From Roseicyclus persicicus (GTDB lineage: Bacteria > Pseudomonadota > Alphaproteobacteria > Rhodobacterales > Rhodobacteraceae), in assembly GCF_012395815.1 (NCBI RefSeq), contig NZ_JAAZQQ010000001.1, positions 682,001 through 746,000 on the forward strand: DNA of 64,000 nucleotides, in the 5' to 3' direction. The first letter of the stretch is position 1, and the number at the start of each line of letters is the position of its first letter. Shown in pieces: positions 23,524 through 63,369 of this stretch. Under the pieces are notes generated by a model that ran no database searches, was not told the DNA's origin, and saw only the letters and a program-made list of their open reading frames with translations. The position numbers were made by a program, and so were the translations under genes.

Positions 23524-23610
23524 GCGCGAAACTGCAGTTTCGCGCGGCGGAAAACCGCAGTTTTCCCATACGGAAAGCTGCAGCTTTCCGCCTGCGTTGT
23601 CCTGCAGGAC
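23524..23610. repeat. Array of four palindromes with CTGCAG-type centres
   Basis: Between the topA stop and the nitroreductase start lie four consecutive palindromes. They span 23524-23545 (22 bases, perfect, arm GCGCGAAACTG), 23549-23566 (18 bases, one mismatch, arm GGAAAACCG), 23571-23590 (20 bases, perfect, arm CGGAAAGCTG) and 23599-23610 (12 bases, GTCCTGCAGGAC). Each centre is CTGCAG or nearly so, while the arms differ. In topA orientation the array begins 11 bases after the stop. It could form tandem hairpins in RNA. Confidence 0.85.
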
Positions 23611-23621
23611 GACGCCCCGCC

Positions 23622-26318
23622 TCAGCCCTTGGCCGATTTCCCCTTGGCCTTGGCGGGCGCCTTGGCCTTCGCCTTGGCCGCCGGCTTCTTGGCCTTGCCC
23701 TTGCCGCCCTTGGCCGCCTTCTCGGCGATCAGCTCCAGCGCCTGCTCCAGCGTCACCGCCTCGGGCGCCACGTCCTTGGGCAGCGTCGCGTTGACCTTGT
23801 CCCACTTCACGTAGGGCCCGTAGCGGCCCGGCATCACCTGCACCGGCCCGCCGTCCGGGTGCTCGCCCAGCTCCTTCAGCGGCGCCGCGGCGGCCCCGCG
23901 CCCGCGCCCGCCCGCGGCCTTGGCCGCCAGCAGTTCCACCGCCCGGTTCATGCCGATGGTCCAGACCTCGTCGACCTCGGGCAGGTTGGCGTAGAGCGGC
24001 TTGGCCGCCTCCTTGGCCTTGTAGCTGACGTAGGGCCCGAAGCGCCCGATCGCGGCCTCGACCGGCGCGCCGTCCTCGGGGTGCGCCCCGACGAGGCGGG
24101 GCAGCGACAGGAGCTTCAGCGCCTTCTCGATGTCCATCGCGTCAGCGGCCCAGCCCTTGGGCAGCGAGGCGCGCTTGGGCTTGGGGTTGTCCTCGGTCGC
24201 GTCGCCCAGCTGCACATAGGGCCCGAAGCGCCCGTCGCGCAGCGTCACCGGCTGCGAGGTGTCGGGGTCGACGCCCAGCATCTTGCCGTCGGGGCCGATG
24301 CCGGTGCCGTCCTCGGCATCGGGGTTCGGCGGGCCGAAGGGGCGGGTGTAGCGGCACTCGGGGTAGTTCGAGCAGCCGATGAAGGCCCCGCCCGAGCGCG
24401 CGGTGCGCATCGACAGCCGGCCGTTGCCGCAGACCGGGCAGGCGCGCGGATCGCCGCCGTCGGCGCGGGCCGGGAACAGGTGCGGCTCCAGCACCTCGTT
24501 GATCTTGTCCAGCACCTCGGTGATGCGCAGCTCCTCGGTCTCGGCCAGCGCCGCCGAGAAGTCGCGCCAGAAGGCCTGCAGCACGTCCTTGTAGGCGCGA
24601 TCGCCGGCGCTGACCTCGTCGAGCTGGTTCTCGAGGTCGGCGGTGAAGTCGTACTCCACGTAGGTGCGGAAATAGTTGACGAGGAAGGCCGTCACCAGCC
24701 GCCCGATGTCCTCGGGGATCAGCCGGTTCTTGTCCTTGCGGACGTAGCCGCGGGCCTGGATCGTGTCGAGGATCGAGGCGTAGGTCGAGGGCCGCCCGAT
24801 GCCCAGCTCCTCCATCCGCTTGACCAGCGTCGCCTCGGTGTAGCGCGGCGGGGCCTGGGTGAAATGCTGCTGCCCGATCACCGCGCCGTCGCCCGACATC
24901 AGCGCGGCCTCGTGCTCGGCCATGGCGCCCGACGCGGGCGGCTGGCCGGTGATCTTGCCCCATTCCGCGGCGTAGGCGCGGGCGCTGGGCTTCACCGCGT
25001 CGCCCTTGGCGATCTGCGGCAGGCGGCGGTCGTCCTCGTCCTCGGCGTCGTCGCGGCCTTCCTCGTAGACCTTGAGGAACCCGTCGAACAGCACCACCTG
25101 GCCCGTCGCACGCAGCTCCACCTGCCCGTCGGCGGCGGCGACGGTGACGGTGGTGCGCTCAAGGCGCGCGGCCTCCATCTGGCTGGCGATGGTGCGCTTC
25201 CAGATCAGCTCGTAGAGCTTGCGCTGGTCGTCCTCGGACAGGCGCAGGTCGCCGGGGCCCTTGGACATGTCCGTGGGCCGGATGCACTCGTGCGCTTCCT
25301 GCGCGTTCTTGGCCTTGTTCTTGTACATGCGCGGGCTCGACGGCACGTAGTCCTTGCCGTAGCGCGCGGCGATGGCGTCGCGGGCGGCGTGGACGGCCTC
25401 GGGCGCCATGTCGATGCCGTCGGTCCGCATGTAGGTGATGTGCCCCGCCTCGTAGAGCCGCTGGGCCGCGCTCATGGTCTGGCGGGCGCCCATGCCGAAC
25501 TTGCGGCTCGCCTCCTGCTGCAGCGTCGAGGTCATGAAGGGCGGCGCGGGGTTGCGCGCCGTGGGCTTGGCCTCCACGTCGGTGACCGACAGCGCGCGGG
25601 AGGACACGGCCTGCACCGCAAGCGACGCCTCGGCCGCGGTCTTGAGGTCGTAGCGGTCGAGCTTCTTGCCGCGGAGGTGCGTCAGCCGCGCCTCGAAGCT
25701 CTGGCCGCGGGGGGTGTCGAGCATGGCGCGCACCGACCAGTATTCGCGGGGCCGGAACGCCTCGATCTCCATCTCGCGGTCGACGATGATGCGCAGCGCG
25801 ACCGACTGCACCCGGCCCGCGGATTTCGCGCCGGGCAGCTTGCGCCAGAGCACCGGGCTCAGGCTGAAGCCCACGAGGTAGTCGAGCGCGCGGCGGGCGA
25901 GGTAGGCCTCGACCAGCTCCATGTCGACCTGCCGCGGCGCCTTCATCGCCTCGGTCACGGCGGATTTGGTGATCGCGTTGAACACCACGCGGCTGACCTG
26001 GGTGCCGGCCTTGATCGCCTTGCGGCTGGTCAGCGCCTCCTGGAGGTGCCAGCTGATCGCCTCCCCCTCGCGGTCGGGGTCGGTGGCGAGGATCAGGGTG
26101 GGGTCGTCCTTGAGCGCGTCGGCGATGGCCTTGACGTGCTTCTTGCTCTCGGGGGCGACCTCCCACTGCATCTCGAAGCCCTGTTCGGGGTCGACCGAGC
26201 CGTCCTTCGAGGGCAGGTCGCGGACATGGCCGTAGGAGGCGAGGACCGTGTAATCGCTGCCGAGATACTTGTTGATGGTCTTGGCCTTGGCGGGCGATTC
26301 GACGACGACGACGGGCAT
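23622..26318 (-). CDS. topA: DNA topoisomerase I (type IA)
   Basis: An 898-residue enzyme that relaxes negative supercoils through a 5'-phosphotyrosine. The Toprim domain begins MPVVVVESPAKAKTINKYLG and the catalytic tyrosine lies in ITYMRTDG. One four-cysteine zinc ribbon is present (CPVCGNG, then CSNYPEC). It is followed by zinc-less repeats marked FGPYVQLGD, FGPYVSYK and YGPYVKWD. The final 40 residues are a Lys/Ala-rich basic tail likely to grip DNA. ATG 26318 starts exactly at the conserved N-terminus. dprA lies upstream on the same strand. Confidence 0.97.
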   Translation of the reverse strand: MPVVVVESPAKAKTINKYLGSDYTVLASYGHVRDLPSKDGSVDPEQGFEMQWEVAPESKKHVKAIADALKDDPTLILATDPDREGEAISWHLQEALTSRKAIKAGTQVSRVVFNAITKSAVTEAMKAPRQVDMELVEAYLARRALDYLVGFSLSPVLWRKLPGAKSAGRVQSVALRIIVDREMEIEAFRPREYWSVRAMLDTPRGQSFEARLTHLRGKKLDRYDLKTAAEASLAVQAVSSRALSVTDVEAKPTARNPAPPFMTSTLQQEASRKFGMGARQTMSAAQRLYEAGHITYMRTDGIDMAPEAVHAARDAIAARYGKDYVPSSPRMYKNKAKNAQEAHECIRPTDMSKGPGDLRLSEDDQRKLYELIWKRTIASQMEAARLERTTVTVAAADGQVELRATGQVVLFDGFLKVYEEGRDDAEDEDDRRLPQIAKGDAVKPSARAYAAEWGKITGQPPASGAMAEHEAALMSGDGAVIGQQHFTQAPPRYTEATLVKRMEELGIGRPSTYASILDTIQARGYVRKDKNRLIPEDIGRLVTAFLVNYFRTYVEYDFTADLENQLDEVSAGDRAYKDVLQAFWRDFSAALAETEELRITEVLDKINEVLEPHLFPARADGGDPRACPVCGNGRLSMRTARSGGAFIGCSNYPECRYTRPFGPPNPDAEDGTGIGPDGKMLGVDPDTSQPVTLRDGRFGPYVQLGDATEDNPKPKRASLPKGWAADAMDIEKALKLLSLPRLVGAHPEDGAPVEAAIGRFGPYVSYKAKEAAKPLYANLPEVDEVWTIGMNRAVELLAAKAAGGRGRGAAAAPLKELGEHPDGGPVQVMPGRYGPYVKWDKVNATLPKDVAPEAVTLEQALELIAEKAAKGGKGKAKKPAAKAKAKAPAKAKGKSAKG

Positions 26319-26658: not shown

Positions 26659-27822
26659 TCAGAGCCGCGTGACGAGGCCGCCCCCGCCGCGGGCGATCCG
26701 GCCCGCCATCTCCAGCACGGCCAGCGCCTGGGCCACCGCGCGGGCCGGGCGGCCGAGGTCGCGGATCAGCTGGTCCTCGGCCACGGGGCCTGCGCCGAGC
26801 AGGTCGAGGATCGCGGCCTCGTCGCCGCCGGGCGGGGGCGGGGCAGGGGGCGCCGGTGCGACCGGCGCCTCGGCCCTGGGCGCGGCGCGGGCCGGGGCGG
26901 GGGCGCCCCCGGGCGTGCCGAGCGCCTCGATCACGTCCTCGGCGCCGCGCACCAGCAGCGCGCCGTCGCGGATCAGGAGGTTGCCGCCCCCCGCCCGGCT
27001 GTCGAGCGGATGGCCGGGCACCGCCATCACCTCGCGGCCCTGGTCGAGCGCCATCCGCGCCGTGATGAGCGAGCCCGAGCGCGTCGCCGCCTCGATCACG
27101 ATCACGGCGCGCGACAGGCCGGCCACGATGCGGTTGCGGCGCGGGAAGTGGCGCGCCTGCGGGTCGAGGCCGAAGGGCATTTCCGACAGGCACAGGCCGC
27201 GCTCGGCGATGGCGCGGGCGAGGTCGGCGTTCTCGGGCGGGTAGATCACGTCGAGGCCGCCCGCCATCACGGCGACGGTGCCGGTCTCGAGCGCCGCTCG
27301 GTGCGCGAGCGCGTCGATGCCGCGGGCCAGCCCCGAGACGACGACGAAGCCCGCCGCGCCGAGGTCGGCGGCCAGGTGGCGCGCCATCCGCGACCCCAGC
27401 GCCGAGGCGTTGCGGGTGCCGACCAGCGCCAGCATCGGCCGGGCCATGAGCGACGCCCGCCCCCGGGCCCAGAGCACCGGGGGCGCGTCGGCGATGCCGG
27501 CCAGCGGCGCGGGGTAGTCGGGATCCCCGAGGCAGATCATGCGGGCGCCGGCGCGGGTCGCCGCGCGCAGCTCGGCCAGCGCGACGGGCTCGGGGCAGGG
27601 GCTGTAGCCCTCCACGCCGGCGGCGCGGGCGACCTCGGGCAGCGCCGCGAGCGCGGCACCTGCGTCGCCGTGTTCGCCCATCAGCCGCAGGTAGGTGGCG
27701 GGGCCGACACGGCGCGACCGGATCAGGCGCAGCCGTGCAAGGCGCTCGGCCGCGTCGGCGGCGGGGGGCGGGAGGCTGGCGGGGGCGGATTCGGCGAATC
27801 CGAACTCGGTCTCGGGGCTCAT
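26659..27822 (-). CDS. dprA: DNA-processing protein DprA
   Basis: A 387-residue Rossmann-like protein that loads RecA onto single-stranded DNA during natural transformation; it is widely kept even in species not known to be competent. The core shows LVGTRNASALGSRMA, VVSGLARGIDALAHRAAL and GGLDVIYPPENADLA. A C-terminal winged-helix domain (DML1-like, about 320-387) completes the architecture. It lies between tldD and topA on the minus strand, separated from tldD by a palindrome array. Confidence 0.93.
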   Translation of the reverse strand: MSPETEFGFAESAPASLPPPAADAAERLARLRLIRSRRVGPATYLRLMGEHGDAGAALAALPEVARAAGVEGYSPCPEPVALAELRAATRAGARMICLGDPDYPAPLAGIADAPPVLWARGRASLMARPMLALVGTRNASALGSRMARHLAADLGAAGFVVVSGLARGIDALAHRAALETGTVAVMAGGLDVIYPPENADLARAIAERGLCLSEMPFGLDPQARHFPRRNRIVAGLSRAVIVIEAATRSGSLITARMALDQGREVMAVPGHPLDSRAGGGNLLIRDGALLVRGAEDVIEALGTPGGAPAPARAAPRAEAPVAPAPPAPPPPGGDEAAILDLLGAGPVAEDQLIRDLGRPARAVAQALAVLEMAGRIARGGGGLVTRL

Positions 27823-27879
27823 GCCCGGCAGGCTAGGCCCGTGCCGGTTAACGCGAGGTTACCGGCGCCGACCGGGGGC

Positions 27880-27991
27880 GGGAGAGTTTTGCAAAACTCT
27901 CCCCACGCCCTTGCAAGGGCGTGGGCCAGAGCCTTGCAAGGCTCTGGTCCGTTTCTTGCAAGAAACGGGCCAGCCTTTTGCAAAAGGCTGG
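27880..27991. repeat. Array of five perfect palindromes centred on TTGCAA
   Basis: Five perfect palindromes stand nearly end to end: 27880-27903 (24 bases, arm GGGAGAGTTTTG), 27902-27925 (24, arm CCCACGCCCTTG), 27926-27947 (22, arm CCAGAGCCTTG), 27949-27968 (20, arm CCGTTTCTTG) and 27970-27991 (22, arm CCAGCCTTTTG). All share only the central TTGCAA; the arms are unrelated. The period is about 23 bases. In tldD orientation the array begins 5 bases after the stop, and dprA follows. It is not a CRISPR: there is no constant repeat and no spacers. Confidence 0.95.
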
Positions 27992-27996
27992 TGCCC

Positions 27997-29421
27997 TCAG
28001 GCCGCCGAGCCGCCCACCGTCAGCCCGCCGATCAGCAGCGTCGGCTGGCCCACGCCCACCGGCACCCACTGCCCCGCCTTGCCGCAGTTCCCCATGCCGG
28101 GGTCGAGCGCCATGTCGTTGCCGATCGCCCGGATCTGCTGCAGCGCCGTCGCCCCGTCGCCGATCAGCGTCGCGCCCTTCACCGGGGCGCCCACCTTTCC
28201 GTTCCTGACCCGGTAGGCCTCGGTGCAGCTGAACACGAACTTGCCGTTGGTGATGTCGACCTGCCCGCCGCCGAAGCCCACGGCGTAGATGCCGTCTTTC
28301 ACCTCGGCCACGATGTCGGCGGGGTCCGTGTCGCCGCCCAGCATGTAGGTGTTGGTCATCCGCGCCATCGGCGCATGGGCGTAGCTCTCGCGCCGCCCGT
28401 TGCCCGTGGGCGCGACGCCCATCAGGCGGGCCGACTGCCGGTCCTGCATGTAGCCCACCAGGATGCCGTCCTCGATCAGCACGTTCCTGCCCGAGGGCGT
28501 GCCCTCGTCGTCCACGCTGATCGACCCGCGCCGGTCGGGGATCGTCCCGTCGTCCAGCACCGTCACCCCCGGCGCGGCCACCCGCTGGCCCATCAGCCCG
28601 GCGAAGGCCGACTGCTTCTTGCGGTTGAAGTCGCCCTCGAGCCCGTGGCCCACCGCCTCGTGCAGCAGGATGCCCGGCCAGCCCGGCCCCAGCGCCACGT
28701 CCATCACGCCCGCGGGCGCGGGTTCCGCCGACAGGTTCACCACCGCGATTCGCAGCGCCTCGCGCGCCACGCCCTCCCAGTGGCCGCGGGTCAGCAGCCC
28801 GGTCAGCCCGATCCGCCCGCCGCCGCCCGCCGAGCCGGATTCGCGGCGGCCGTTCTCCTCGACGATGACCGACACGTTCAGCCGCACCATGGGGCGCACG
28901 TCGCGCACGCGCGTGCCCTCGGGGCGCAGGATCTCGACCTCCTGGTGGCTCGCGGCGAGCGAGGCCGACACCTGCACCACGCGGGGGTCGAGGGCGCGGG
29001 CGAAGGCGTCGATCTCGGCCAGCGTCTGCAGCTTGACCGCGAACTCGGCGCCCGACATCGGGTCGGCGTCGGTGTAGAGGCGGCGGTTGGTGCCCATCGG
29101 CGCCTCGGCCATCGTGCCGCCGCCGTCGCCCACGGCCAGCCGCGCGGTCTCGGCGGCCCGGCGCAGCGCCGCCTCGGAGATCTCGGTGGAATGGGCGTAG
29201 CCCGCGACCTCGCCCTTCACCGCGCGCAGGCCGAAGCCTTCGGCGGCGTCGTAGCTGGCCGTCTTGACCCGGCCGTCGTCGAACACCAGCACCTCTGACC
29301 GGCGGCGTTCCAGGAACAGCTCGCCGTCCTCGGCCCCGTCGGTCGCCGCGCGCAGGATCGCCAGCGCCGCGCCCTCGTCCAGAAGCGTGTCGAAGGGGCG
29401 GAACGGGGTGGGATCTGACAT
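27997..29421 (-). CDS. tldD: Metalloprotease TldD
   Basis: A 474-residue subunit of the TldD/TldE (PmbA) zinc protease, which processes small peptides such as microcins and modified peptides. The active-site HEXXXH motif is H254-E255-AVG-H259 ([13 protein letters not shown]). The substrate-groove glycine-rich blocks are intact and length is typical. It diverges from ctaC, a standing arrangement in Rhodobacterales. No TldE partner gene is in the window. Confidence 0.96.
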
Positions 29422-62262: not shown

Positions 62263-63246
62263 TCAGGCGGTCCAGGTGGGGCCGGCGGGGTCGCCGGTGG
62301 CCACGACATGGTAGAGCGCGGCCTCGCCGGTCATCGACGGAAACGCCGTGTGGTCGAGATGCTCGGGCACGCTCATGGTGTCGCCGGGGGCCAGCGTCGC
62401 CTCGCCGGCGGGGTAGTGGGCGTTGCCCTCCCACACCACGCGCCAGTGGCCCTTGACCGGCATCAGGACCGAGGGGCGGTCGTGGCGGTGCATCTCGGTC
62501 GTCGACGAGCCGCGGGTCAGGAACCCCACCTCGAAGCCCGGGCGGTCGCGCAGCATCCCGGTTTCGCCGATCACCAGCACCGGCTTGCGGTCGGACAGCG
62601 CCACCATGTCCCAGTAGCGGGCGACGTAGCCGGGGACGACCTCGGCGGTGGTGGGCTCGGGGAAATTGGCCAGCTCCTGCTCGGACAGGAGCGGCATGGG
62701 GCCGACGCCGGCGGGCAGGGCCTGCCCCTTCTTGGTGTCGTAGAGCTTGCCCTGTTCCGACAGGACGAGGCCGTGGGCCCTGGCGTCCTCGATCACCTGC
62801 GGCGCCCAGATCACGCCGCCGCCCGCGTCGTCGCCGCCGAGGATGGCCATGATCATCCCGTAGTCGTCGCCGATGTTCTCGAAGCCGCGGAAGATGCCGG
62901 TGGGGATGTTGAAGATGTCGCCTTCCTCCAGCACCACCTCGCCCGCCTTGCCCCAGCGCCCCCAGAAGAACCGCCAGCGCCCCTTGAGGACGAAGAACAC
63001 CTCGGCCGTGCGGTGCGAATGCAGCGAGTTGCGGCACTTGGGCGGCTGGCCCGCCGCGCCGATGTTGAAGCCGTGCGGGATCGTCAGGTGGACGTGCTGG
63101 TCCGCCGCCTCGGACACGCCGCCGCCGATGATGGTGAAGTTCTCCTTCTGGTCGCTGCCCGGGGTGTGGGCGTCGATGAAGGCGGTGCGGCAGGGCTTGA
63201 GGTCGCCGTAGCGGACGATGCGGGCTTCCATCTCGGGCGGGGTCAT
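62263..63246 (-). CDS. Bicupin (two-domain cupin) protein
   Basis: A 327-residue protein with two cupin barrels. The first has the metal motif HSHRTAEVFFVLKG, and the second has MHRHDRPSVLMPVKG. Iron-dependent dioxygenases of the gentisate and hydroxyanthranilate type share this architecture, but no substrate signature is decisive. It is upstream of the MetE-like gene in the same orientation, downstream of the NTF2-like gene and separated from it by a palindrome array. Confidence 0.8.
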   Translation of the reverse strand: MTPPEMEARIVRYGDLKPCRTAFIDAHTPGSDQKENFTIIGGGVSEAADQHVHLTIPHGFNIGAAGQPPKCRNSLHSHRTAEVFFVLKGRWRFFWGRWGKAGEVVLEEGDIFNIPTGIFRGFENIGDDYGMIMAILGGDDAGGGVIWAPQVIEDARAHGLVLSEQGKLYDTKKGQALPAGVGPMPLLSEQELANFPEPTTAEVVPGYVARYWDMVALSDRKPVLVIGETGMLRDRPGFEVGFLTRGSSTTEMHRHDRPSVLMPVKGHWRVVWEGNAHYPAGEATLAPGDTMSVPEHLDHTAFPSMTGEAALYHVVATGDPAGPTWTA

Positions 63247-63272: not shown

Positions 63273-63369
63273 CGGGGCAAGATCGTTGCAACGATCTTGC
63301 CCCGCGATTTGCAAATCGCGGCCAAGCGGCTTGCAAGCCGCTTCGCAAGGGTCTTGCAAGACCCTTGCG
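63273..63369. repeat. Array of four perfect palindromes centred on TTGCAA
   Basis: Perfect palindromes lie at 63273-63304 (32 bases, arm CGGGGCAAGATCGTTG), 63302-63321 (20, arm CCGCGATTTG), 63324-63343 (20, arm AAGCGGCTTG) and 63344-63369 (26, arm CGCAAGGGTCTTG). They share only TTGCAA at the centre, exactly as the array at 27880. In the orientation of the upstream gene the array begins about 30 bases after its stop, and the bicupin gene follows. Confidence 0.95.

Follow-up and report, generated by a model that had tools for sequence, protein, structure and literature searches.

Roseicyclus persicicus carries a dispersed family of tandem hairpin arrays at the ends of its genes, a family that is REP-like but differs in design from known bacterial palindrome repeats. 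As judged from aligned sequences, what is conserved is a hairpin of 22 bp: its tip is fixed, and its stem letters change in matched pairs. That the family is lineage-specific and acts at transcript ends in both directions is the reading we favour, with about even confidence.

The window, by which we mean the whole 64,000-nucleotide stretch of DNA that was analysed, contains one such array between tldD and dprA (27880-27991; no strand is assigned to this or the other arrays). It comprises five abutting perfect palindromes of 24, 24, 22, 20 and 22 bp, each centred on TTGCAA, with centre spacings of 22, 23, 22 and 22 bp, just as a sequence-only reading of the window had described it (five tandem perfect palindromes of 20-24 bp with a period of about 23). 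Units 1 (GGGAGAGTTTTGCAAAACTCTCCC, 27880-27903, 24 bp) and 2 (CCCACGCCCTTGCAAGGGCGTGGG, 27902-27925, 24 bp) overlap by 2 bp, and the remaining neighbours lie 0-1 bp apart: unit 3 (CCAGAGCCTTGCAAGGCTCTGG, 27926-27947, 22 bp), which has the commonest arm of the family, unit 4 (CCGTTTCTTGCAAGAAACGG, 27949-27968, 20 bp) and unit 5 (CCAGCCTTTTGCAAAAGGCTGG, 27970-27991, 22 bp). The last of these stands 5 nt past the stop codon of minus-strand tldD (27997-29421, start from a codon-bias gene call; Pfam PmbA_TldD domains 1-3), the 3' end of which thus bears the array. The start of the next gene downstream, dprA (26659-27822, minus strand; Pfam DNA_processg_A, DprA_N and DprA_WH), is 57 nt from the array. 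RNA folding (-70.0 kcal/mol, z -7.7) and DNA folding (-44.7, z -8.6) of the array each predict five clean hairpins, all with a stem of 8-10 pairs and a TGCA loop. An Rfam scan of window positions 27000-29000 returned nothing above gathering score and three sub-threshold microRNA matches, and a plasmid search gave no match to the window array. At the same junction in two related genomes (G001 and G006), four-unit arrays are found in which one unit aligns to units 4 and 5.

TTGCAA occurs nine times in the 64-kb window, each time inside either this array or a second one (63273-63369), which has four palindromes of 32, 20, 20 and 26 bp and lies between minus-strand genes at 62263-63246 and from 63400 onward. 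The counterpart of the second array in G009 (L304) is kept, with a matched change. A further array, with CTGCAG, CCGCAG and CTGCAG centres and a period of 23, lies at 23524-23590, downstream of minus-strand topA (23622-26318, assigned by Pfam).

The own genome (G000; 3.71 Mb in 10 contigs) was searched with the triple pattern TTGCAA-N12..26-TTGCAA-N12..26-TTGCAA, which arrays with mutated tips escape (one such array is known). The search gave 52 triples per strand against 0 for the reversed control, bearing out the earlier claim that the pattern lies beyond chance. All 52 belong to 28 arrays of at least three adjoining units. A split 2+2 array (L249) and the mutated-tip array near C8:37461-37548 bring the total to at least 30 arrays of three to five hairpins each. 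Units mostly abut, with 0-3 nt between them and a C(G/C)C-rich outward flank to the 22-mer, and the period is 22-23 bp in 258 of 289 spacings. They follow a degenerate consensus, CCAGRSYY-TTGCAA-RRSYCTGG (3' arm G-R-S-Y-C-T-G-G over 114 own units), with an almost invariant extended core, YYTTGCAARR, and GGCTCT as the commonest 3' arm (15/114). The sequence-only reading had stated that no two arms are related and that the sequence itself is not repeated. Genome-wide, neither statement holds: the arrays form a dispersed repeat family with a common, if degenerate, consensus, multi-hairpin segments are common to several loci, and the tldD array itself has 69 bp in common with another. The same reading had held that conserved arms in relatives, with an array unique to this locus, would point to ordinary local sequence; the arms of the tldD-dprA array are partly conserved in two relatives, and the array is not unique to its locus.

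Placement of the arrays was read from codon-bias gene calls, not annotation. For the 29 own arrays placed in this way, the flanking genes converge at 18 and run on the same strand at 11; no array separates divergent genes. Convergent junctions are enriched relative to the gene pairs of the window (p = 0.0004). Four array-rich genomes together hold 95 arrays (54 convergent, 36 same-strand, 5 undetermined). Where an array edge faces a stop codon, the distance is short: among 107 arrays, 133 of 166 such edges are ≤15 nt away (median 7.5). In 16 of the 18 convergent own arrays there are 2-12 nt to the stop codon on each side, the array filling the gap; in the other two, the gap on one side widens to 22 and 52 nt. 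Ten proteins, mostly from genes that end at arrays, were scanned with Pfam, and domains were found in nine; the set includes tldD, dprA, topA and a gyrase/topoisomerase IV A subunit. This placement resembles that of convergent REPs, most of which lie <20 bp from both 3' ends in the two species charted in the relevant part of PMC3733652. According to work cited in PMC12306157, REPs reduce translation when they lie <16 nt from a stop codon. Most arrays here are as close as that and could therefore influence translation.

Symmetry of the stems is close to complete. Arm pairs 1-6 are complementary in all 114 own units, which had been picked by at least three perfect arm pairs, against 30-83% after column shuffling. 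At arm positions 3 and 4 shuffled pairing is 30-34%, yet these positions are paired in 114/114. A looser search over the 107 arrays of all genomes examined gave 416 sites with 22 mismatches in 2496 pairs. With 11 sites judged unrelated by eye left out together with their 9 mismatches, 13 arm mismatches stand in about 405 units, none of them in the own genome. TTGCAA units of the four main genomes show 19 mismatches, of which six come from two chance TTGCAA occurrences between units (L314 and L296) and the other 13 are the same 13. Two of these fall in a single L316 unit, which looks as if a deletion had fused two units. The L316 array (G001:C76:8200-12200) has no middle, and one of its units combines the left arm of one ancestral unit with the right arm of another, which suggests a deletion between hairpins.

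Orthologous arrays were identified by their flanks, giving 29 groups with at least two members; for 20 of the 29 own arrays, a related genome has an array at the corresponding junction. Relative to G000, compensated and unmatched arm-pair changes number 39:5 of 300 in G001, 41:3 of 294 in G006 and 34:0 of 288 in G009, or 114 compensated against 8 unmatched over three comparisons that overlap in the own genome. Among the closer genomes the ratios are 8:7 (G001-G006), 0:7 (G001-G009) and 8:4 (G006-G009), so unmatched changes arise and persist for some time. Assembly errors may inflate the unmatched counts. G001, G006 and G009 are drafts, and G009 is 84% complete. The species pairs have a common history, which makes counts across pairs non-independent. 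Pooling the three overlapping comparisons gives 35 unit changes limited to one pair, of which 9 are transversion-type compensations. Arm sites diverge from G000 by 13.8% (G001), 14.5% (G006) and 11.8% (G009), and flanks by 15-16%; among G001, G006 and G009, divergence is 3.6-5.9 times lower in the arms than in the flanks. Centre sites changed in 1/300 (G001), 0/294 (G006) and 0/288 (G009), 1/882 overall, in a comparison that found units partly by their centre, so that units with changed centres may escape it. A less biased, centre-tolerant search found nine variant centres in about 405 units. The rare variants are TTCGAA, CTGCAG, TTGAAA (TTTCAA on the other strand), TTGGAA, TTACAA and ATGCAA. 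CTGCAG in place of TTGCAA is a compensated change of the closing pair, and the tip proper is therefore TGCA. T-N-N-A tips give unusually stable DNA hairpins. The earlier suggestion of selection on symmetry around a fixed hexamer agrees with these counts, in that symmetry is kept as letters change and the centre hardly varies.

In the transcript-end reading, the unit is a perfect palindrome of 22 bp; its predicted fold is a hairpin of about nine pairs in which a T-A pair closes the TGCA tip. Units stand head to tail in groups of three to five directly after stop codons, where they fill convergent gaps or follow the upstream gene of a same-strand pair. Selection would act on hairpin formation and on the tip, and template switching between arms and copying between arrays may help to keep the stems perfect. 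The arrays would stop transcription or shield 3' ends from nucleases in both directions, and some factor would recognise the tip. At the convergent junction L228, all seven array-less relatives with both flanks aligned (G011, G007, G002, G003, G004, G012 and G005) bear another terminator-like element, AT-rich with a hairpin, which fits a function at transcript ends.

Three observations speak against this reading. No T-run follows most hairpins of the window array: a terminator scanner gave one terminator-like site there (shuffle mean 0.3), the tail of which is the next unit. No replaced element of the L228 kind was found at the L230 or tldD-dprA junctions; at the latter, nine array-less relatives show no AT-rich element, and three of them a 12-16 bp palindrome. 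Finally, a purely RNA-level function would not predict so few G-U pairs. Of 804 pairs at same-strand loci, 2 are G-U, 2 A-C and 3 mismatched in other ways, and G-U makes up 8% in 61 other strong 3' hairpins of the own genome, a rough control because these were chosen by folding energy. The near-absence of G-U at same-strand loci fits a strand-symmetric process, whether two-sided function, DNA hairpins or template switching between arms. An excess of G-U as proof of RNA function was considered and rejected, the same-strand pairs holding as many A-C as G-U.

The family is best described as REP-like rather than REP, since its placement matches but the tag, the dimer layout and the RAYT enzyme are missing. 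In the portion of PMC3733652 concerned, REPs (GTAG and CGTC super-families) are dispersed palindromes of 20-40 bp with degenerate stems, found chiefly where genes converge or follow one another on the same strand and frequently <20 bp from a stop codon, and the arrays resemble them in all these respects. CGTC families are described there as having 8-9 bp stems and 4-5 nt loops, much as here, and as occurring mostly as head-to-head dimers and being without a dedicated transposase; the present arrays, unlike these dimers, are tandem with 3-5 units. TTGCAA units also differ from REP/BIME in being perfect palindromes through the centre, with no unpaired GTAG/CGTC tag or tail; no such tag was found at the stem end. 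RAYT/Y1 transposases (PF01797) were found in 0 of 13 congeneric genomes, three of them <90% complete, and in 5 of 14 control genomes. BIMEs are built from REP units that alternate in orientation and are joined by defined linkers, unlike TTGCAA units, which are self-symmetric, have no defined orientation and mostly lack linkers. REPINs consist of two inverted REPs with conserved sequence; like these RAYT-mobilised elements, the arrays are short hairpin repeats spreading within a genome, but their stems are free in sequence and no RAYT turned up. CRISPR was rejected, as the repeats differ and there are no spacers.

Outside the palindrome repeats, intrinsic and bidirectional terminators are likewise GC-rich hairpins right after genes, usable from both sides, but the arrays add a fixed tip, a fixed 22-23 bp period, 3-5 units in a row and common descent, with T-runs lacking at the window array. 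CsrB/RsmZ-type sponge RNAs are tandem hairpins with one conserved loop (GGA) and variable stems within one sRNA gene. The arrays are like them in combining a conserved loop with variable stems, and unlike them in being dispersed perfect palindromes at gene ends. Mitochondrial repetitive hairpin-forming and double-hairpin elements, in the part of PMC2800124 that describes them, are dispersed, apparently mobile and intergenic with a patchy presence, as are the arrays; they are organellar, and that part mentions neither a 22-bp tandem period at stop codons nor a constant tip. Among the matches listed from the open-licence PMC literature, none describes TTGCAA or TTCGAA palindrome arrays, and the one 'palindrom' match in the Roseibacterium elongatum genome paper is a reference to a CRISPR tool. 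Within that scope, no described family emerged, in line with the earlier statement that no named element has this design. Known bacterial palindrome repeats keep their sequence, and here it is shape and tip that are kept while the sequence is free. The 20 own arrays matched at the same junction offer a natural experiment on stem upkeep by selection, template switching and copying between loci.

Long identical stretches between loci differ from genome to genome. The tldD array and the array at C8:92490 have 69 identical bp in G000 and 20 bp at the same two loci in G006; another pair of loci is identical over 53 bp in G009, 48 in G001 and 12 in G006, and a third over 45 bp in G006 and ≤27 in other genomes. 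The simplest reading of these sequences is that segments of two or three hairpins have been copied between arrays, in either orientation. Arrays also reach new places, because the L230 junction has an array of ~90 bp in G000 and none in relatives: G002 has 4 nt between both stop codons and no element, G011 a short gap, and G001, G006 and G009 extra sequence but no array. Array edges show no constant terminal repeat beyond the C(G/C)C-rich edge, and array-less junctions no clear target-site duplication, both being features of MITEs.

Such lineage-specific sharing and the L230 insertion would suit selfish DNA, in which single-stranded DNA hairpins are recognised by stem shape and tip by a putative copying enzyme, insertions away from stop codons are lost and the host gains nothing. 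The strand-symmetric perfection of the stems with its few G-U pairs and the patchy presence of triples in 5 of 13 congeneric genomes (52, 37, 37, 38 and 2 per strand) point the same way. We nevertheless regard this explanation as doubtful, although it is the strongest of the rivals. The 13 congeneric genomes yielded no Y1 transposase, and no enzyme was found; 20 of 29 own arrays keep their junction, and the slower change of arms than flanks among G001, G006 and G009 fits constraint better than decay.

It is unlikely that the arrays are ordinary bidirectional terminators, tandem and palindromic by happenstance and each maintained by two-step RNA compensation. Their placement by stop codons, the elements at L228 and the strong enrichment of bacterial inverted repeats downstream of transcript ends, stated in the part of the survey PMC13155455 drawn on here, would all be expected. 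A constant stem length, a fixed tip and a fixed period at ≥30 loci are, however, needless for termination, T-runs are lacking in the window array and G-U is nearly absent. Several other convergent junctions of the own genome, where the hairpins have different loops and in some cases T- or A-runs, also argue against it, and the common consensus and common segments show common descent. Between the same convergent genes at L228, the array-less relatives (L321-L327) carry an AT-rich motif such as GTTTC..AAATATCC, then a GC-rich hairpin. The AT-rich terminator-like motif TTTCNNAAATATCC occurs 0 times in G000 and 3-85 times in each of the other 12 congeneric genomes, counted over both strands with up to one mismatch. 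An exchange of this motif for arrays in the own genome was considered and rejected: G001, G006 and G009 have both motif and arrays, and own intergenic regions contain the close variants AAATACGCC and AAATACTCC, so the zero count in G000 reflects sequence drift.

Binding sites of a dimeric DNA-binding protein (a nucleoid protein, gyrase or a repressor), phased at about two helical turns, would account for the 22-23 bp period and the nearly invariant core, but arm positions 3 and 4 are free in sequence and always paired, which a reader of double-stranded DNA would not need, and divergent promoters are avoided (0/29); this explanation is very improbable. Least probable of all is a neutral rebuilding of the palindromes by template switching during replication, with no selection. 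Part of PMC8794818 proposes that template switching can build and mend perfect stems, and stems are near perfect here despite 3-5 seemingly redundant hairpins per array, with transversion-type compensations among the changes; but the tip, left unprotected by stem copying, varies less than any other part (0-0.3%, compared with 12-14% for the arms, relative to G000), the closest pair, G001-G009, has 7 unmatched and 0 compensated changes, so mending is not fast, and placement is non-random. Because the unprotected tip is the most constant part, template switching alone is insufficient; a helper role, as in the transcript-end reading, is possible.

The TTGCAA form has a narrow distribution. Among 296 family genomes, one per genus, genuine TTGCAA arrays occur only in the own genome; eight others give one or two triple matches each, without palindromic arms. 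One unit, searched for as an exact match in named species genomes, was found in 59 stretches. Arrays of at least two TTGCAA units belong to Roseicyclus/Roseibacterium strains and MAGs and to Rhodobacterales HKCCE4037, HKCCSP123 and SKW234, and stretches from other phyla have no TTGCAA array pair. In viral contigs the triple pattern matched at least 120 stretches, and none among the matches listed has two TTGCAA palindromes of ≥14 bp.

The array design is, on the sequences compared, wider than the TTGCAA hexamer. A triple search with TTCGAA over 395 family genomes matched 16, and the reversed control 0 among the matches listed. Complete arrays, defined as three units each with at least 5/6 arm pairs, are present in 10 genomes of 10 genera (G177, G182, G196, G256, G304, G317, G338, G363, G392 and G398), the richest holding 29 triples per strand. 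Damaged arrays remain in G290 (two good units and a broken third) and G125 (worn), and the triples in G105, G112, G370 and G394 have no palindromic arms and are due to chance. In 19 arrays (65 units) of the TTCGAA genomes, 4 of 390 arm pairs are mismatched and the spacing is 22-25 bp. By window codon statistics, a rougher basis, 9 of these 19 arrays are convergent, 9 same-strand and 1 divergent. Three-unit arrays with CTGCAG, CTCGAG or CCCGGG tips lie beside predicted stop codons in HKCCSP123 (L090:4648-4715) and McBI.24 (L096:4476-4543). A position of these two mixed-tip arrays at topA was rejected, as the TopA protein of the window has no match in either locus.

A broader, family-wide interpretation, which we put forward only tentatively, is that the heritable unit is a hairpin shape with a clade-specific, self-complementary tip, the stem letters being free. 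Recognition and upkeep would be strand-symmetric and at the DNA level, arrays would be copied between gene ends, and the tip would switch from clade to clade, as though tracking a partner that itself changes. The tip classes would then be TTGCAA for Roseicyclus and its close relatives, TTCGAA for ten or more further genera and CTGCAG/CTCGAG for a few gene ends, such as that of topA. Such switches might be under way where one unit has an exchanged tip, as with TTCGAA or CTGCAG inside TTGCAA arrays and TTGCAA inside the TTCGAA arrays of Marivita. Tip-specific recognition at gene ends, if true, would point to a new factor in this large family of marine bacteria. The arrays could also be used as compact two-way gene-end parts.

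The plasmid search gave no match to a Marivita array. Two Marivita stretches from the unit scan are arrays with TTCGAA tips and one TTGCAA unit each. These (L084:7743-7855 and L089:3302-3413) have most units in common and, by eye, ~100 bp of flank; their stored loci run in opposite directions, and the picture resembles a duplication of the whole stretch.
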